Under the pieces are notes generated by a model. The model was not told where the DNA came from and made no database searches. It was given only the letters and a program-made list of their open reading frames with translations. DNA of 8,112 bases, from NCBI GenBank assembly GCA_947484105.1, contig CANKON010000060.1:1-8112 (forward strand), given 5' to 3'. The DNA is from Methylococcaceae bacterium (GTDB lineage: Bacteria; Pseudomonadota; Gammaproteobacteria; Methylococcales; Methylomonadaceae). This document shows, one piece after another, positions 1 through 8,112 of this stretch. Made by a program: the position numbers and the translations under genes. The first letter of the stretch is position 1, and every line of letters starts with the position of its first letter.

Positions 1-1097
1 ACACCGATTTATGTGAACATTTCGCTTATACCCGCCAAGAATTGTTCAGTTTGATTCAAGTCGAAAAAATCAAAACGTTCGATGATTTAATCAGCAAACA
101 CGGCAAAGGCTTAGGTTGTGATATTTGCAAACCCACCGTTGGCAACATTTTAGCGTCGCAATGGAACGAACACATTTTGGAAAAATCGCATCTCGGTTTG
201 CAAGAAACCAACGACACATTTTTAGCGAATATCCAAAAAGATGGCACTTATTCCGTTGTACCTCGCGTCACAGGCGGTGAAATTACACCTGATCAGCTCA
301 TTGTTTTAGGGCAAGTCGCTAAAAAATATAACCTTTACACCAAAATCACAGGTGGTCAGCGCGTCGATTTATTCGGCGTTCGCGTTGAACAATTACCGCT
401 CGTTTGGGAAGAGTTGATTACAGGCGGTTTTGAATCAGGTCACGCCTATGGTAAATCACTTCGCACCGTAAAATCCTGTGTCGGCAGTACTTGGTGTCGT
501 TACGGTGTGAATGACAGCGTAGGTTTGGCGGTTGAACTCGAAAACCGTTACAAAGGTTTGCGTTCACCACACAAAATAAAATTCGGTGTTTCAGGTTGCA
601 CGCGAGAATGTGCTGAAGCACAAGGCAAAGACGTTGGCATTATCGCAACTGAAACGGGCTGGAATTTATATGTTTGCGGCAACGGCGGTATGAAACCACG
701 TCACGCGGATTTATTCGCCTCGTCACTCGATAAAGAAACGCTCATCAAATACATCGACCGATTCTTGAGTTTTTATGTTGCCACCGCAGACCGTTTGCAA
801 CGGACTTCGGTTTGGATGGAAAACATGGAAGGCGGTTTGGATTATTTGAAAGCGGTGGTTATCGACGACAAATTGGGCTTGTGTGAACAGCTCGAAAACC
901 AAATGCAATACGTCATCGACACTTATCAATGCGAATGGAAAACCGTGATTGAAACGCCTGAAAAACGCGCTCGATTCACGCATTTTGTGAACAGCGATAC
1001 GCCAGACAGCAACATTATTTTTGTACCAGAACGTGGGCAAATTCGCCCTGCGAATTCGGAAGAAAGAAAACATTTTGTGTTAGCGGAGATGAAATAA
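1..1097 (+). CDS. nirB: Nitrite reductase [NAD(P)H] large subunit NirB, C-terminal part (5' end outside window)
   Basis: This is the cytoplasmic sirohaem enzyme that reduces nitrite to ammonium with NAD(P)H. The reading frame is already open at base 3 (residues TDLCEHFAYTRQELFS...), so the gene begins upstream and the TTG at 42 is not the true start. In order one sees the end of a BFD-like [2Fe-2S] region (CEHF, then LGCDICKP with a CX2C pair), the nitrite/sulfite reductase ferredoxin-like half domain, and the sirohaem/[4Fe-4S] domain. The four cluster cysteines are CX5C (codons at 477 and 495, CVGSTWC) and CX3C (codons at 597 and 609, SGCTREC); the last is expected to bridge to sirohaem. About 365 residues are visible of the roughly 850 usual for the family. 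The N-terminal FAD and NAD domains would lie upstream. The stop codon overlaps the nirD start (TAATG), implying translational coupling. No key residue appears lost. Confidence 0.97.
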   Translation, partial: TDLCEHFAYTRQELFSLIQVEKIKTFDDLISKHGKGLGCDICKPTVGNILASQWNEHILEKSHLGLQETNDTFLANIQKDGTYSVVPRVTGGEITPDQLIVLGQVAKKYNLYTKITGGQRVDLFGVRVEQLPLVWEELITGGFESGHAYGKSLRTVKSCVGSTWCRYGVNDSVGLAVELENRYKGLRSPHKIKFGVSGCTRECAEAQGKDVGIIATETGWNLYVCGNGGMKPRHADLFASSLDKETLIKYIDRFLSFYVATADRLQRTSVWMENMEGGLDYLKAVVIDDKLGLCEQLENQMQYVIDTYQCEWKTVIETPEKRARFTHFVNSDTPDSNIIFVPERGQIRPANSEERKHFVLAEMK

Positions 1098-1429
1098 TGA
1101 ACTGGTTAAATGTCTGTAAAGTGTCTGATTTACAAAAAAATAGCGGTGTGTGTGCGTTAGTTTCAGATAAACAAATTGCACTGTTTTATTTTTCTAAGGA
1201 AAACACGGTTTATGCGATTAGTAATTTTGACCCGTTTGGCGAAGCGAATGTGTTATCGCGTGGGATTGTTGGCGATTACCACGGTGAAATTGTCGTAGCT
1301 TCGCCGTTGCACAAAGAGCATTTCAATCTTAAAACAGGCGAATGTTTAGAGCATCCAGAGGTAAAAATTCCTGCTTATGCGTGTCGTATTGATAATGGTT
1401 TTGTTCAAATTCCTGCTGAATCGTTATGA
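1097..1429 (+). CDS. nirD: Nitrite reductase [NAD(P)H] small subunit NirD
   Basis: At 110 residues this has the usual NirD length and follows nirB with a one-base overlap, as is standard for this pair. It has a Rieske-like ferredoxin fold pattern: W-x-x-V near the N-terminus, a middle strand ending in FYFSKENTVYAISNFDPFG, then SPLHKEHFNLKTGEC where a true Rieske protein would have CPxHGxxF. Neither the CXH nor the CX2H ligand pair is present, so it should not bind a [2Fe-2S] cluster; this is the known state of the NirD family rather than a defect. It is an accessory subunit of NirB in the cytoplasm. Its end overlaps the next gene by ATGA. The only real alternative is another Rieske-fold protein, which the context makes unlikely. 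Confidence 0.94.
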   Translation: MNWLNVCKVSDLQKNSGVCALVSDKQIALFYFSKENTVYAISNFDPFGEANVLSRGIVGDYHGEIVVASPLHKEHFNLKTGECLEHPEVKIPAYACRIDNGFVQIPAESL

Positions 1430-2655
1430 AACAAAAACAAAGATTAGTTGTCATTGGCAACGGCATGGCGGGAATGCGAACAATTGAAGAATTATTGAGC
1501 GCGTCGCCTGATCAATATGAAATCACCGTTTTTGGCGCAGAACCTTACGGTAATTACAATCGCATTATGTTATCAGCGGTTTTGGCAGGTGATAAAACGG
1601 TTGAAGACATCGTTATCAATCCGCGTGAGTGGTATGTTGAAAATAAAATCAAACTTCATGCGGGTGAAAAAAAAGCCGTGGCGCGAATTGAACGCGGTTA
1701 TAAAAAAGTGATTGCCGTTGATGGCACAACGGCGAGTTATGACCGTTTGCTTATTGCAACAGGTTCAAAAGCGATTTTTCCTGAAGTGGAAGGCAGTGAC
1801 TTAGATGGTGTGATTAGTTTTAGAGACATTGTTGATGTTAATAAAATGCTCGATTACAGTCGAAAATATAAAAAAGCGATTGTGTTAGGGGGCGGTTTAT
1901 TAGGCTTAGAAGCGGCAAATGGTTTAGCGTTGCGCGGAATGGAAGTCACGGTTATTCATCGAAATGAGGTTTTGCTTAATCGTCAGCTTGATCAAACTGC
2001 TGCAAAATTATTGCAATCCGAACTTGAGCAACGTGGCATTACATTCAAAATGGCAACCAAATTACAGAAGTTAATTGGCAACGAAGACAGGCACATTACC
2101 GCCGCGCAATTTCAAAACGGTGGCGAATTAGAGTGTGATTTATTGATTTCTGCCATTGGTATTGAGCCGAATATCGCTATCGCAAAAAATGCGGGTTTGT
2201 ATTGTGAGCGCGGCATTGTGGTGAACGATACGTTGCAAAGTTATGATCCCAGTATTTACGCAGTTGGTGAATGTATTCAACATCGTGGTGGGACATTTGG
2301 TTTAGTCGCGCCACTTTTTGAACAAGCGAAAGTATGTGCCAATCATCTTAGTTCACATGGCGTTGCCGAATACATCACTTTACCTACGGCAACAAAACTT
2401 AAAGTCACAGGCATTCAATTATTTTCAGTCGGCGATTTTTTAGGAGATGCAGAAAGTGAAAACATTACGTTTTCTGATCCTGCGCTGGGTATTTATAAAA
2501 AATTAGTATTGAAAGCCAATCAGTTAATCGGTGCTGTTTTATATGGTGATACCGCTGATGGAAATTGGTATCAAGAATTGCTTGAAAAGAAAATCAGCGT
2601 TTTTGAAATGCGTGACAAACTAATTTTTGGCAAGGCTCATAATACGATTTTTTAA
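1426..2655 (+). CDS. Stand-alone FAD/NAD(P)H oxidoreductase related to the NirB N-terminal module; probable electron donor to nitrate reductase
   Basis: This 409-residue flavoprotein is of the pyridine nucleotide-disulfide oxidoreductase class 2 type. An FAD-binding motif is at residues 10-16 (IGNGMAG), ATGS follows near residue 110, an NAD(P)-binding motif is at 155-162 (GGGLLGLE), and the second FAD motif with IYAVGE ends at 282. The C-terminal part up to about residue 400 (GDFLGD, LIGAVLYGDTADGNWY, MRDKLIFG) matches the C-terminal cap of the flavin module of NirB. The protein stops where NirB would continue into its BFD [2Fe-2S] region; no CX2C pair is visible, so it probably carries FAD only. 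Similar separate reductases accompany NasA in other bacteria, called NasC in Klebsiella and NasB in Bacillus; because the names conflict no symbol is given. The ATGA overlap with nirD places it in the same operon. The role as NasA electron donor is an inference from context; a duplicate reductase for NirBD is the main alternative. Confidence 0.86.
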   Translation: MKQKQRLVVIGNGMAGMRTIEELLSASPDQYEITVFGAEPYGNYNRIMLSAVLAGDKTVEDIVINPREWYVENKIKLHAGEKKAVARIERGYKKVIAVDGTTASYDRLLIATGSKAIFPEVEGSDLDGVISFRDIVDVNKMLDYSRKYKKAIVLGGGLLGLEAANGLALRGMEVTVIHRNEVLLNRQLDQTAAKLLQSELEQRGITFKMATKLQKLIGNEDRHITAAQFQNGGELECDLLISAIGIEPNIAIAKNAGLYCERGIVVNDTLQSYDPSIYAVGECIQHRGGTFGLVAPLFEQAKVCANHLSSHGVAEYITLPTATKLKVTGIQLFSVGDFLGDAESENITFSDPALGIYKKLVLKANQLIGAVLYGDTADGNWYQELLEKKISVFEMRDKLIFGKAHNTIF

Positions 2656-2792
2656 AATACTGCCCTTTTCAGAAATTTATAAGCGTGTCGATAACGAAGA
2701 TAGGCGTGATTTTTTAAATCTAAAATCTGACGCAAACCCGCTTAGTGAGTCGGGAAATTTACCGAAAATATAATTTTAGAGAATAAACTTTT
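2656..2792 (+). promoter_or_regulatory. Structured 137-base leader before the chemoreceptor gene (two hairpins)
   Basis: This is the only sizeable gap in an otherwise overlapping gene cluster. Hairpin 1 pairs 2704-2707 (GCGT) with 2730-2733 (ACGC) and 2708-2713 (GATTTT) with 2722-2727 (AAAATC), with a two-base bulge at 2728-2729 and an eight-base loop. Hairpin 2 pairs 2737-2740 (CCCG) with 2751-2754 (CGGG) and 2741-2743 with 2747-2749, with a bulged T at 2750 and a three-base loop. Hairpin 2 is followed by AAATTT rather than a T run, so it is not a classic intrinsic terminator. The string GACGCAAA at 2729-2736 resembles the conserved core of c-di-GMP-I (GEMM) riboswitches, which often precede chemotaxis genes, but other parts of that consensus are missing. 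A weak Shine-Dalgarno-like AGAGA lies at 2778-2782. A regulatory role is inferred from structure and position only. Confidence 0.35.
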
Positions 2793-5009
2793 ATGTCAAT
2801 CACAACACGATTTGCAGTCATTTTGCTGACTTTAATACTCGGTTTTTCATTATTTGGGTTTGCTACCAACACATCCATGAAAAAATTGAATATCAACGGT
2901 GAAATTTATCGCCAAATTATTCAAGGTAAAGATTTAGTGGCTGACATCTTACCGCCGCCTGAGTACATTTTAGAATCTTATTTAGTGACATATCAGCTTA
3001 AAGAAGCCAAAACGCCTGAAGATATTTCAACATTAGTTAAACGTTTTCAAACCTTAAAAAATGATTACGATGCGCGTCATCTTTATTGGGAGCATGAAAA
3101 CAATCTTGATAATTCTTTGAGAACACCTTTGCTGGAGGAATCATATCGGCATGCCAAAGACTTTTACAACGAAGCACAAAGCGTTTTTATTCCCAGTATT
3201 CAAAGTAATAATTCATTTGCCGTTTCTGAAAGTTTCAAAAAAATGAATGCGAGCTACGCAAAACACCGCGCGGCAATTGATTTACTTGTTGAACGAGCGA
3301 CCAAATACCATTCCGATAACGAATCTCAAGCACAACATATTTTGAGTGTAAATAAACTTTCGTTGGTCATTATTTTTCTGCTCAGTATTGGTATATCAGT
3401 ATTGTTAACGTTTTTTATCAGTCGTCGAATTATTGGAGAATTAGGTGCTGAACCTTTTGAACTTATCAAATTAGCCAAAAACATTGCGGCAGGAAAATTA
3501 GATAACCCGATTGATATGACAAACAAAAATCGTGATAGCGTCATTTTCAATATGAAAATAATGCAAGACCAAATTTTGGAGCGACGTGAAAACGCAACCC
3601 GTTTAAACAATGAAATTTCACGAATCAAATCAGCGTTAGATAACGTTAGCACAGGCGTGATGATTGCCGATAATGATTTGAATATCGTTTATGTGAATAA
3701 GTCCGCGATTCAAATTTTGCATGAAGATGAAACCGCTATCCAGAATAAATTTGAAAACTTTGATAGTAGCCATTTAATCGGCGCAAATATCGATAGTTTT
3801 CATAAAAATCCTGCTCATCAACGTCAATTACTCAAAGAATTAACACAAAAATATAAAGCCACCATGATGCTTGGTAGTCGAGAAATGGTTGTGTTTGCCA
3901 ATCCTGTGATTGATGAACAAGGCATTCGATTAGGAACGGTTGCCGAATGGTATGACCGCACAGCAGAAGCACAAACAGAAAGAGACGTTGCAGAGATTGT
4001 AACCGCAGCAGGCAATGGTAATTTTTCTAAACGTTTAAAAATTGAGGATAAAGAAGGCGTGCTGCATGATTTGGGAATGGGCATTAACCAACTGATGCAA
4101 ACAAACGAATCGAGTTTGGCTGAAATTGCTCACGTTTTACAAGCCTTGGCACAGGGTGATTTGACTCAAATTATCACTAATAACTACGCGGGAACATTTG
4201 GGCAATTAAAAAATGATGCAAATATGACGGTTGAAAAACTAAAAAGCATTGTTTATCAAATTCAATCCGCATCAAATTCTATCAATTCTGGCGCACAAGA
4301 AATTGCGTCAGGAAATAATGATTTATCACGCCGTACCGAAGAACAGGCAAATAGCCTTGAAAAAACAGCCGCCAGCATCACGCAATTAACCAGCACCGTG
4401 CAACACAACGCCGAAAATGCGAAATATGCCAATCAATTAGCTAATTCTGCGACAACCATTGCCAAAAAAGGCAGTGATGTTGTCGGTCAAGTGGTTGAAA
4501 CAATGGATAGCATTAACGAATCGTCACGCAAAGTCGTTGAAATTATTTCTGTTATCGACAATATCGCGTTCCAAACCAACATTTTGGCGTTGAACGCGGC
4601 AGTTGAAGCGGCAAGAGCAGGTGAACAAGGACGGGGCTTTGCTGTGGTTGCAACAGAAGTGCGAAATTTAGCACAACGCGCCGCTTCAGCGGCTGGTGAA
4701 ATTAAATCCTTAATTGGAGATTCGGTTGATAAAGTTGAAGGCGGTAGCCAATTAGTTGCTCAAGCAGGTGCAACGATGAATGAAATTGTGCAAGCAATTC
4801 AAGGTGTGACGACAGTCATGACAGAAATTTCAGGAGCATCGATTGAACAAAGTTCAGGTATCGAACAAGTAAATCGGGCGATTTCACAAATAGATGAAGT
4901 GACACAACAAAATGCGGCTCTCGTCGAAGAAGCTGCTGCCAGTGCAGAATCACTCGAAGACCAAGCCCAAAAATTATTAGTCACGGTATCACATTTCAAA
5001 ACGACTTAA
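2793..5009 (+). CDS. Methyl-accepting chemotaxis protein with HAMP and PAS domains
   Basis: This 738-residue inner-membrane chemoreceptor would pass a signal to the CheA/CheW array. Transmembrane helix 1 is at about residues 7-25 and helix 2 at about 189-210, enclosing a roughly 160-residue, mostly helical periplasmic domain with a [14 protein letters not shown] segment. I see neither a clear NIT-domain signature nor the PilJ-type nitrate N-box in it. A HAMP domain follows (about 209-262, with the GELGAEP turn), then a PAS domain (about 280-390, [19 protein letters not shown] to EWYDRT) with no recognised cofactor ligand. A second HAMP-like linker covers about 391-486, and the signalling hairpin runs from about 488 to the end. 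Its conserved tip is near residues 590-628 ([20 protein letters not shown]), and no CheR/CheB-tethering pentapeptide is seen at the C-terminus. The ATG has a weak AGAGA ribosome site ten bases upstream. The stop lies 3 bases before nasA. A nitrate, nitrite or redox ligand is inferred from context. Confidence 0.96.
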
Positions 5010-5012
5010 ATT

Positions 5013-6908
5013 ATGACAAAAACCATTCAAACCACTTGTCCGTATTGCGGCGTAGGCTGTGGCATCAGTGTAAAAATTGATGAGTCAAACCGTCAAATAA
5101 AAATTAGTGGTGACAAATTACATCCTGCTAATTTTGGGCGGTTATGTTCAAAAGGTTCTGCGCTAGGTGAAACGATTGAACTGAAAGGTCGATTGTTACA
5201 ACCCAAAGTTTATGGACGCGAAACCTCTTGGACGGAAGCATTAGATTTAGTCGCCGATTCTTTTAAAAGCGTGATTGAGAAATACGGTGCTGATGCCGTG
5301 GCGTTTTATGGTTCTGGGCAATTACTCACCGAAGATTATTACGTTGCTAATAAATTGATGAAAGGTTTTATCGGCAGCGCAAACATGGATACAAATAGCC
5401 GTTTGTGTATGTCATCATCGGTTGCAGGACACAAACGCGCTTTCGGGGCGGACGTTGTACCAAATTGCTACGAAGATTTTGAATACGCCGATTTAATTCT
5501 GCTGATTGGTTCAAATACTGCGTGGTGTCATCCTGTGAGTTTTCAACGGATTCGCGCGGCTAAAGAAAAAAATCCCAATTTAAAAATCGTTGTGATTGAC
5601 CCGCGTAAAACAGCCAGTTGTGATATTGCGGATTTACATTTATCGCTTGCAAGCGGAACAGATGCGATTTTATTTAATGGTTTGTTCCAGTTTTTACACG
5701 AAAAAAATAAGTTAAATTTAGATTTTGTTGAACATCACACCGAAGGGGGGGAAGCTGTTTTAGATGGTTTGAAATTGGACAATTACAGCGTTGAAAATGT
5801 GGCAAACCGTTGTGATTTAAAAATCGAAAACGTAAGACAATTTTTCAGTTGGTTTGCAAATACTGGAAAATCGTTAAGTTTATACAGTCAAGGCATCAAT
5901 CAATCTTCATCTGGCACAGATAAAGTAAATGCAATATTGAATTGTCATTTAGCAACAGGACGCATTGGAAAAGTGGGTTGTGGCGCGTTTTCATTGACGG
6001 GACAACCGAATGCAATGGGCGGACGTGAAGTGGGCGGACTGGCTCATCAACTCGCCGCACACATGGATTTTTCAAATTCTGACGAAATCGACTTGGTTTC
6101 ACGTTTTTGGAATGCCCCGAATATCGCACAAAAAGGCGGTTTGCCTGCAATTGATTTATTCGATGCGATTTATGATGGCAAAATTAAAGCGGTTTGGATT
6201 ATGGGAACAAATCCCGTTGTCAGTTTGCCCAATGCAGATAAAGTCAAAGAAGCCTTAAAACGCTGTGAATTTGTGGTCGTTTCTGATTGCATCGAAAAAA
6301 CAGATACGACGGCATTGGCTCATGTTTTGTTGCCCGCACAAGGTTGGAGCGAAAAAGACGGAACGGTAACAAATTCCGAGCGTTGTATTTCACGTCAACG
6401 GGCGTTGCTTTCACCAGCAGGTAGTGCAAAACCTGATTGGTGGATTTTAACGCAAGTCGCGCGACGTTTAGGTTTTGAGCAAGCGTTTCATTATCAAAGT
6501 CCTGTTGAGATTTTTCGAGAACACGCCGCGTTATCAGGTTTTGAAAATAATGGTGAACGCGCTTTTAACATTTCGGATTTAGCGCAAATTAGCCAGCATG
6601 ATTACGATAATTTTTCGCCGACGCAATGGGGTGGCATACGTTTTTTTGCAGATGGACAGTTTTTTACAAAATCAAGCAAAGCGCAGTTAATTCCCGTTAT
6701 TGCTCGTTTGCCAATTAACGCGCCGAATGAAAATTATCCGTTAATTTTAAATACGGGGCGAATTCGTGACCAATGGCACACGATGACACGCACAGGCATT
6801 GCTGCGAAATTGAATCAACATAAACCCGAACCGTTTGTTGAAATTCATCCCGAAAACGCAAAACGTTTTGAACTTAAAACAAATCAATTAGGATACGGTC
6901 AAAAATAA
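5013..6908 (+). CDS. nasA: Assimilatory nitrate reductase catalytic subunit NasA, 3'-truncated by an insertion sequence
   Basis: This encodes the cytoplasmic molybdopterin enzyme reducing nitrate to nitrite. The N-terminal [4Fe-4S] motif has cysteines at residues 9, 12, 16 and 45 (CPYCGVGC, then RLCSKG), with the conserved Lys47 after the last. Cys132 in NSRLCMSS is the expected molybdenum ligand. GQPNAMGGREVGG and the WIMGTNPVVSLPNAD segment are typical of the NasA/NapA group. The C-terminal dinucleotide-binding domain begins (NTGRIRDQWHTMTRTG) but the frame is family-like only to residue 626 (FELKTNQL). The last five residues, GYGQK, and the TAA come from the insertion sequence. Family members are commonly about 870-900 residues, so some 250 are missing: most of the molybdopterin-binding domain and the usual BFD [2Fe-2S] tail. 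The protein is very probably inactive. The ATG is 3 bases after the receptor stop, so it is in the same operon; no clear Shine-Dalgarno is seen. The remaining 3' part may lie beyond the element, outside the window. Confidence 0.95.
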   Translation: MTKTIQTTCPYCGVGCGISVKIDESNRQIKISGDKLHPANFGRLCSKGSALGETIELKGRLLQPKVYGRETSWTEALDLVADSFKSVIEKYGADAVAFYGSGQLLTEDYYVANKLMKGFIGSANMDTNSRLCMSSSVAGHKRAFGADVVPNCYEDFEYADLILLIGSNTAWCHPVSFQRIRAAKEKNPNLKIVVIDPRKTASCDIADLHLSLASGTDAILFNGLFQFLHEKNKLNLDFVEHHTEGGEAVLDGLKLDNYSVENVANRCDLKIENVRQFFSWFANTGKSLSLYSQGINQSSSGTDKVNAILNCHLATGRIGKVGCGAFSLTGQPNAMGGREVGGLAHQLAAHMDFSNSDEIDLVSRFWNAPNIAQKGGLPAIDLFDAIYDGKIKAVWIMGTNPVVSLPNADKVKEALKRCEFVVVSDCIEKTDTTALAHVLLPAQGWSEKDGTVTNSERCISRQRALLSPAGSAKPDWWILTQVARRLGFEQAFHYQSPVEIFREHAALSGFENNGERAFNISDLAQISQHDYDNFSPTQWGGIRFFADGQFFTKSSKAQLIPVIARLPINAPNENYPLILNTGRIRDQWHTMTRTGIAAKLNQHKPEPFVEIHPENAKRFELKTNQLGYGQK

Positions 6909-6973
6909 CTTCCCGATTATTTGAATTTAAATGAGATAATTCGACCAAAGAATTTTTCATTACGATTTCAAAA

Positions 6974-7219
6974 ATGATCAGCTACGAAAAAAATATTGAA
7001 CTCAAAATGAAGCGTTTATTCAAAACGCTATCAGAAAAAGACAAACGTCGCTATGCTGCAATTGAAGTTGAAAAACTCCCAAATGGTGGAATAAATTACA
7101 TTTCAAAATTGTTTGGAATTGATCCAAAAACAATACGATGTGGCATGGAAGAATTAGAACAACAAGAAGATACGACCCAAGGTCGAATCAGAAAAAAAGG
7201 GGCGGACGAAAATGTGTGA
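6974..7219 (+). CDS. ISAzo13-family transposase, N-terminal frame (before the frame change)
   Basis: This 81-residue frame encodes the N-terminal DNA-binding part of the transposase. A helix-turn-helix-like stretch is visible in LPNGGINYISKLFGIDPKTI, followed by the ELEQQE and RIRKKG segments that in this family lead into a GGGRK motif. Here the frame instead reads KKGADENV and stops at 7217-7219, while the continuation (GGRKCVTLKCPELELNF) is in the -1 frame from about 7199. The ATG at 6974 gives the usual N-terminus for the family; no good ribosome site is visible before it. It can be a real short product or the 0-frame portion of a frameshifted protein. On its own it lacks every catalytic residue. 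Confidence 0.8.
   Translation: MISYEKNIELKMKRLFKTLSEKDKRRYAAIEVEKLPNGGINYISKLFGIDPKTIRCGMEELEQQEDTTQGRIRKKGADENV
7192..7202 (+). other. Possible -1 frameshift site in the transposase (A7 then G4)
   Basis: Seven A at 7192-7198 followed by four G at 7199-7202. In the 0 frame the codons are AAA (7193-7195) and AAA (7196-7198), so A AAA AAA is an in-phase X XXY YYZ slippery heptamer, and a -1 slip there gives RKK-RGGRK and opens the whole catalytic frame. Alternatively, one extra G in the run would give RKK-GGGRK, the family-typical motif, so a one-base loss from a G5 run is equally able to explain the break. I see no strong stimulatory hairpin just downstream; only a weak GGAC/GTCC pairing (7204-7207 with 7229-7232). 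Confidence 0.5.
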
Positions 7220-8112
7220 CGTTAAAATGTCCCGAATTAGAGCTTAATTTTTTATCACTGCTAGAAGAGTTCAAAGCAGGTGATCCAATGCGTGTAGGCG
7301 TGTTATGGATGAATTTATCACGTTGTGAAATCAGTCTGCGTTTAGCTGAAATGGGAACACCTTGTAGTCGAAATTCGATAAAGAAATTATTGAAAAAACA
7401 CAACTTGGGACACCGTAAAGCGTGCAAGAAAAAATCAGTGGGAAATCATCCAAATCGTAATGAACAGATTGAAAACATTGGTAAGATAAAAGCCAAGTAC
7501 ATTGCCGCTGGCAATCCCGTCATCAGCATTGATACGAAAAAGAAAGAGTTGATTGGTAATTTTTCCCGCGATGGAAAAACGTATACACAAATTCCTGTTG
7601 AGACGTTTGACCATGACTTTCCAAGTCTAAGTGAAGGCAAATTGATTCCGCATGGTATCTACGATATTGCTCGAAATGAAGGTCATTTGAATCTCAATAC
7701 CAGTCACGATACCAGCGAATTTTGCTGCGATAGTATTGCTCATTGGTGGAAATTATACGGACATAAAAATTACCCCGATGCCACGTCAATACTGATTTTA
7801 TGTGATGGTGGAGGCAGTAATTCGAGTCGGAGTCATTTGTTCAAAAAAGCGTTGATTGAACTTGCTCAAAAACTCAATTTGGAAATTCGGATAGCCCATT
7901 ATCCACCTTATTGTTCAAAGCATAATCCGATTGAACATCGCTTGTTTTCTCATGTGACAAGAGCTTGTCAGGGCGTTGTTTTTCATTCTGTCTCAATTGC
8001 AAAACAATTCATGCTCAAAGCTAAAACCAATACGGGCTTGAAAGTGACTGTTGATGTTTTGACAGGGATTTATGAAACAGGAAAAAAATGTACAGCCGAT
8101 TTTGTTCTGGGT
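7199..8112 (+). CDS. ISAzo13-family transposase, catalytic DDE part (-1 frame, 3' end outside window)
   Basis: This frame has no start codon near its beginning but is open without a stop from about 7199 to the window end (over 300 codons), codons in phase with base 7201. It encodes the DDE catalytic core of the ISAzo13/Rhodopirellula-type transposase: FLSLLEEFKAGDPMR, KAKYIAAGNPVISIDTKKKE with the first Asp at codon 7531, GIYD, TSHDTSEFCCDS, LCDGGGSNSSR with the second Asp at codon 7804, and IAHYPPYCSKHNPIEHRL with the Glu at codon 7933. All three catalytic acids are present, spaced 91 and 43 codons apart, so the core looks intact. The final residues seen (ETGKKCTADFVLG) are near the usual C-terminus; I expect only a few tens of residues more. 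It joins the preceding frame by a -1 shift at the A7/G4 run, or by a one-base deletion. Confidence 0.88.

Follow-up and report, generated by a model that had tools for sequence, protein, structure and literature searches.

A candidate nitrate-linked chemoreceptor in the nitrate-assimilation gene cluster of a Methylococcaceae bacterium

The stretch of DNA analysed here (the window) is 8112 bases long and comprises all of contig C60 (CANKON010000060.1) in the draft genome of a Methylococcaceae bacterium (1.5 megabases, 72.5% complete). It carries genes of nitrate assimilation and, embedded among them, the gene that concerns us: a chemoreceptor (methyl-accepting chemotaxis protein, MCP) of 738 residues (2793..5009), identified by domain scans and a structure model. 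All window features with a strand lie on the + strand. The run opens with the 3' part of nirB (3..1097), which runs off the contig start; its product is an assimilatory nitrite reductase, whose siroheme/4Fe-4S half is present in the window (NIR_SIR and NIR_SIR_ferr in Pfam, NirB models of NCBIfam). It is followed by nirD, the nitrite reductase small subunit (1097..1429; TIGR02378 above cut-off, Rieske_2), and by a FAD/NAD(P) reductase (1426..2655; Pyr_redox_2 and NirB N-terminal models), whose relatives are found upstream of the nitrate reductase gene across the family (36 of the 40 nasA loci read in other genera). An intergenic gap of 137 bases (2656..2792) then precedes the MCP, and nasA (5013..6888), encoding an assimilatory nitrate reductase, follows it; alignment with the nasA genes of relatives shows that this copy is truncated by an insertion sequence (IS).

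The preliminary description of this DNA, made from the letters alone, gave the order nirB-nirD-flavoprotein-MCP-nasA on one strand. Sequence and domain scans bear this out, and the overlaps of 1 base (nirB/nirD) and 4 bases (nirD/FAD reductase) and the 3-base gap between the MCP stop and the nasA start are exact. Tight coupling holds for nirB-nirD-FAD reductase and for MCP-nasA, but not for the flavoprotein and the MCP, 137 bases apart. A sigma-70-type scan of positions 2600-2850 found neither a + strand promoter-like site nor a terminator-like site in this gap; the single promoter-like site in the scanned region is on the - strand. The gap has no homologue among the fetched loci of other genomes. 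From the 3-base spacing, the MCP and nasA are probably co-transcribed.

The receptor consists of a transmembrane (TM) segment, a periplasmic helical sensor, a second TM segment, a heme-type PAS domain, a HAMP_2 domain (4068..4238; PF18947) and an MCP signalling domain (4434..4904; PF00015, residues 548-704, E 1.7e-51, above cut-off). TM1, sensor and TM2 occupy the N-terminal 211 residues (2793..3425), as judged from an alignment of 52 sensors (A1), an AlphaFold model and matches to four-helix-bundle structures. No Pfam family matches the periplasmic domain at or close to its curated cut-off. The preliminary description had left its fold to structure prediction; the model of the N-terminal part (predicted local distance difference test score 87.7) matches four-helix-bundle structures, and we predict that the sensor is such a bundle. 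With the Pfam 4HB_MCP_1 and TarH models at E up to 0.01 the window sensor gives no match, while 7/52 and 2/52 relatives, respectively, do. A motif LPP..Y..ES, part of a longer stretch ADxLPP..Y..ESY, is conserved across alignment A1. The periplasmic part corresponds to residues 33-188 of the window receptor, and Tyr39, Asp51, His158 and Arg159 are among its conserved residues.

The sensor does not resemble the known nitrate-binding domains in their signatures. The preliminary description saw neither a NIT signature nor a PilJ-type N-box, and scans and motif counts agree. No match to the NIT domain (which we take to be PF08376) was found by Pfam in the window sensor or the 52 members, and none to the PilJ domain (presumably PF13675) in the window sensor at E up to 1 or in the 52 members at E up to 0.01. 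The N-box of PilJ-type nitrate receptors, [IVL]-[ND]-x-A-G-x-Q-R-M-L-[ST]-Q as given in the part of the source available (PMC6381276), occurs in 0/52 sensors. Nitrate sensors of the NarX/NarQ type carry a P-box motif with GxxR nitrate contacts, according to the accessible part of PMC8199190; its core, N.AG..R, likewise occurs in 0/52 sensors, and GxxR in the first-helix region in 1/52, the distant member L066.

The PAS domain (3609..4016) is of the Aer2 type. It aligns with the solved PAS domain of Pseudomonas aeruginosa Aer2 (3vol, E 1.6e-38; 4hi4, 2e-34) and with a third chain, 6ceq (1.1e-13). Trp386 (codon 3948-3950; the tryptophan of AEW) aligns with the Aer2 pocket tryptophan, presumably W283, which we take to steady oxygen. 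His337 (codon 3801-3803; the histidine of FHKNPAHQR) aligns with the Aer2 heme ligand; in the part of the source seen, PaAer2 H234 is described as binding heme b (PMC13401364). This histidine is kept in all 29 PAS rows compared, window included; the rows were selected by the tryptophan motif, which makes conservation of the tryptophan circular but not that of the histidine. One receptor with the histidine motif, L180, was left out of these rows because of that selection and is labelled PAS-less in the sensor tree described below. The best NCBIfam model for the protein is the aerotaxis transducer Aer2 (NF041847; residues 271-737, 479.9 bits, below the 1200-bit cut-off). We predict that the window PAS is of the Aer2 heme type and an oxygen sensor, and its alignment suggests that it binds heme. 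The preliminary description considered an indirect signal through the cytoplasmic PAS domain; that route becomes more concrete, with oxygen as the predicted signal.

In a sample of 301 genomes of the window's order, probably the methane-oxidising Methylococcales, the sensor is present in 66. Within the window's genus (g1), nasA was found in 8 of the 18 genomes searched and its upstream side is readable in seven. At three of these seven genes the next gene upstream, in the same orientation, is a sensor-family MCP, and these receptors belong to two paralogue groups: the PAS-type receptor of the window, 3 bases away, and PAS-less receptors in G155 and G203, 24 and 19 bases away. The G155 run reads FAD reductase, nrtA, nrtB, nrtCD, porin, EAL, MCP, nasA, histidine kinase. 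In G147 the gene immediately preceding nasA encodes a chromate transporter, in G274 a DEAD-box helicase; no same-strand gene adjoins nasA upstream in G169 and G209, although the 3' end of nasA in G169 faces that of a PAS-less MCP. In G287 nasA runs off the contig. The chromate-transporter gene of G147 stands between porin and nasA, the slot held by the MCP in G155 and G203, and nrtA at this locus (L052 1034-8121) is broken by in-frame stops.

A second genus (g3), which we infer to be Methylobacter, shows the association at nitrate-uptake genes. The set comprises 16 genomes, sensor carriers only, and nrtA is present in all of them. In 13 a sensor-family MCP lies upstream of nrtA on the same strand, with 0.6-2.9 kilobases (kb) from the signalling domain to nrtA. 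In G015 an EAL-MCP pair adjoins divergent nirBD, so that 14/16 genomes have the receptor at nitrate-uptake or nitrite-reduction genes. G173 and G228 showed no sensor MCP near nitrate genes; in these two genomes and G015 the nrtA neighbourhood itself lies outside the fetched stretches. The 16 genomes hold 32 sensor-bearing proteins (one of which, L082, has no MCP signalling match) and at least 251 MCP-domain matches. Thirteen of the 32 sensor proteins lie beside nrtA, and no other MCP does among the matches listed and the fetched nrtA stretches. By chance, about 0.07 of 16 genomes would be expected to have a sensor MCP beside nrtA; the observed 13 is far above this.

Which part of the receptor follows the nitrate locus can be seen in the 30 close-clade receptors of g3. 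Twelve of 13 PAS-less receptors are at a nitrate locus (10 at nrtA, 2 at nirBD) compared with 3 of 17 PAS-bearing ones, of which one (L171) is a broken gene; Fisher values come out too strong owing to relatedness. In the three genomes whose receptor at nrtA carries a PAS, no sensor match belongs to a PAS-less receptor. On a tree built from the first 235 residues of each receptor, the nitrate label requires 8 changes, at least 4 of them forced by well-supported branches, with the window receptor, G155/G203 and G229/G285 on separate lineages; these labels were set by hand, and P0002-P0006, whose neighbours are not known, were labelled 'other'. By sequence, the nitrate-locus slot is one that keeps the sensor while the cytoplasmic half varies. 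Because PAS-less receptors hold the g3 nitrate loci, the nitrate link tracks the periplasmic domain, which points to this domain as the nitrate-related input; in the window protein the PAS would supply oxygen as an additional signal.

The receptor also has a recurrent partner. Beyond the MCP on its upstream side, 9 of the 13 g3 nrtA-MCP loci carry a same-strand EAL gene, and two others reach the contig end at that point. EAL genes of one family precede many of the PAS-less receptors in g1 and g3 alike (the L009 and L173 copies were confirmed to contain YkuI_C). In g5, a third genus, an EAL relative (56%) directly follows nasA in five of nine loci read (L147, L148, L149, L150 and L153). Since the EAL family recurs both by PAS-less receptors and after g5 nasA, this suggests that the EAL and MCP pair, beyond the MCP alone, is tied to nitrate genes. 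It is possible that the g5 arrangement represents a link of nitrate assimilation to cyclic di-GMP (c-di-GMP) that is independent of the MCP.

We consider it likely, from the gene neighbourhoods, that the placement of the receptor at nitrate genes is real and functionally meaningful, and likely too that the receptor reports nitrate or a linked nitrogen/oxygen signal without the binding motif of known nitrate sensors. The reading that we prefer, tentatively and with somewhat less than even confidence, is that of a transmembrane chemoreceptor belonging to the nitrate-assimilation cluster, in which the periplasmic bundle is likely to report on nitrate or nitrite, either directly or by way of a partner protein, and the heme PAS would add an oxygen signal. 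The nitrate uptake/assimilation locus would carry its own receptor, which would then be made when the cell needs nitrate; both inputs would reach the chemotaxis kinase, and the cell would swim towards favourable levels of nitrate and oxygen. For members without a PAS the periplasmic input alone would remain, and the neighbouring EAL protein could tie the same condition to c-di-GMP. Both the identity of the ligand and the direction of the swimming response are inferred. A bolder version sees a new class of nitrate/nitrite receptor, in which a four-helix bundle with LPP..Y..ES and invariant tyrosine, tryptophan, histidine and arginine replaces the P-box/N-box. It would occur in methanotroph nitrate loci in interchangeable receptors with or without an oxygen-sensing heme PAS, paired with a c-di-GMP phosphodiesterase, and nitrate would steer both swimming and surface life. 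We consider this version rather unlikely.

A number of observations weigh against the preferred reading. The preliminary description expected homologues of the receptor to recur beside nitrate genes. They do so in g3 (14/16 genomes) and at three of the seven readable g1 nasA genes, and the idea thus withstands this check, but the other four have no receptor directly upstream, and neither nasA nor nrtA was found in 6 of the 13 sensor-bearing g1 genomes (88-97% complete; nirBD was not searched there). No narG was found in the 18 g1 genomes and no nrtA in the window genome at its 72.5% completeness. Outside the window's genus, 40 nasA neighbourhoods (6 kb per side where the contig allowed), fetched from among 49 nasA-bearing genomes, contain no MCP. 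The 33 loci of divergent sensors (L076-L108, 26-49% identity) have no nas, nir, nrtA or nrtB match, and two weak ABC-transporter matches only. The closest orthologues, P0002-P0005 (83-90%), lie on metagenome contigs with unreadable neighbours. P-box, N-box and GxxR (the last checked in the first 215 residues) are all absent from the window sensor, and the MCP could have a promoter of its own within the 137-base gap. In addition, the nasA of this contig is cut by an IS, and because of this interruption co-expression of the MCP with a working nitrate reductase is doubtful here. As the receptor is kept in genomes where no nasA, nrtA or narG was found, and the 40 nasA and 33 divergent-sensor loci are negative, the ligand range may extend beyond nitrate, or the signal may instead be nitrite, ammonium, nitric oxide or a redox state.

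The strength of the PAS match to PaAer2, with its heme histidine kept, and the choice of Aer2 as best NCBIfam model (far under its cut-off) would also suit an oxygen/energy-taxis receptor, in which the heme PAS is the main input, the place in the nitrate operon reflects shared nitrogen/oxygen control, and the bundle has another ligand or a structural role. We think this unlikely: 12 of the 15 g3 members at nitrate loci are PAS-less, so the PAS cannot explain their placement, and the PAS receptors of g3 are located elsewhere in 14 of 17 cases. It might also be that there is no functional link at all, members of a multicopy receptor family having drifted between loci and reached the nitrate cluster accidentally or because expression there is convenient. 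The family does occupy several unrelated genomic places, unrelated genes stand directly before nasA in G147 and G274, and the receptor persists in the six g1 genomes in which nasA and nrtA were not detected. Recurrence in two genera with different paralogues, far over the chance expectation in g3, nevertheless makes this improbable. Receptors of the Tar and Tsr families serve as docking partners for other binding proteins, and the bundle could likewise dock loaded NrtA and sense nitrate at second hand. The predicted fold, of the Tar/Tsr kind, and the MCP near nrtA in 13 of the 16 sensor-bearing g3 genomes fit this proposal; we nevertheless judge it quite improbable, nrtA having been found neither in the window genome nor in G203, which is 95% complete and keeps the MCP-nasA pair.

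Among known systems, McpN of P. aeruginosa, a PilJ-type nitrate chemoreceptor, shares with the window receptor a helical periplasmic domain and a connection to nitrate. The window receptor differs in having no PilJ match or N-box, in its heme-type PAS and in its place within a nitrate operon, and its nitrate role is a prediction. In the part of the source consulted, McpN is presented as the first reported case in which direct binding in the periplasm underlies nitrate chemotaxis; earlier ones are ascribed to energy taxis. McpN is also said to mediate nitrate chemotaxis only under nitrate starvation, with lower mcpN transcript in the presence of nitrate (PMC6381276). By analogy, need-driven control of this kind would be expected for the window receptor. 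NarX/NarQ kinases and receptors with their sensor domain are set apart by the P-box core, absent from 52/52 sensors here, and by GxxR, absent from the window sensor. Aer2-type PAS-heme receptors (P. aeruginosa, Vibrio, Leptospira) share the positions of heme-ligand histidine and pocket tryptophan, followed by HAMP and MCP signalling domains, whereas the window protein has one PAS behind a large periplasmic helical sensor and lies in a nitrate operon; PaAer2, by the portion of its description available, has five HAMP domains and is termed soluble. With the four-helix-bundle receptors MCP2201, PcaY_PP, Vc1313 and Tar/Tsr the sensor shares about 6-9% sequence identity, and it has its own conserved ADxLPP..Y..ESY stretch.

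If the preferred reading is true, a second, unrelated sensor type at nitrate loci would widen the known ways in which bacteria find nitrate, and methane oxidisers, which need both oxygen and nitrate, would have a guidance system for the two together. The PAS-less and PAS-bearing versions at the same locus would be natural controls for the ligand question, which concerns one soluble domain and few candidate ligands.

The end of nasA needs correction. The range given in the preliminary description ends at 6908, but the stop there lies in the insert and nasA is cut near 6888. The nasA genes of four relatives align with the window only as far as 6886-6887; beyond this point the sequence matches that at the edge of C105, another contig in the bin (82% over 134 bases), and leads on to ISAzo13-family transposase frames (6974-7219 and 7138-8112; NF033519, PF07592). 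We assign 6889..8112 to an ISAzo13-family IS, identified by the same two models, whose left end, near 6889, recurs at the C105 edge and which runs off the contig. The nasA frame has 631 codons compared with 883 in an uncut relative, and is 86% identical to a relative's nasA over the first 635 of its 883 residues. By comparison with the 883-residue relative, the truncated protein lacks the BFD [2Fe-2S] domain and the closing part of the molybdopterin-dinucleotide domain. A further contig of the bin, C94 (L072, G000:C94, 1-966), carries a nasA 3' part without the insert (96.8% identity over 218 bases), in which an in-frame TAA stands immediately ahead of the insertion site; this second version may reflect a strain variant, a mixed bin or decay of nasA. 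The reading frame of the transposase changes around an A-run with a G-run behind it, giving two overlapping frames; this would be due to a frameshift signal or to an error of assembly.

Several minor features of the g3 nitrate loci may be recorded. Combining L156, L162 and L175 gives divergent nirBD, an ANTAR (NasT-like) regulator, a GAF protein (opposite strand), EAL-YkuI_C, MCP, DUF2721, nrtA, nrtB, nrtCD and porin, a composite whose full set and exact order are not present in every locus. The GAF protein, the DUF2721 membrane protein and the ANTAR regulator lie near the EAL-MCP pair at L175 10525-15755 and L156 6270-10942, and in L003 a DUF2721-like frame, judged by eye, lies between two sensor MCPs. 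Many Methylobacter receptors (L109, L156, L162 and others) end in a WxxF-type pentapeptide, which serves as a tether for CheR/CheB; the window-genus receptors listed, including that of the window, end in FKT or similar. Finally, a gene for a fused PP2C phosphatase and Ser-Thr kinase occurs near nitrate genes in two genera (L109 7223-8953 and L047 7210-8931; Pfam on the L109 copy only).

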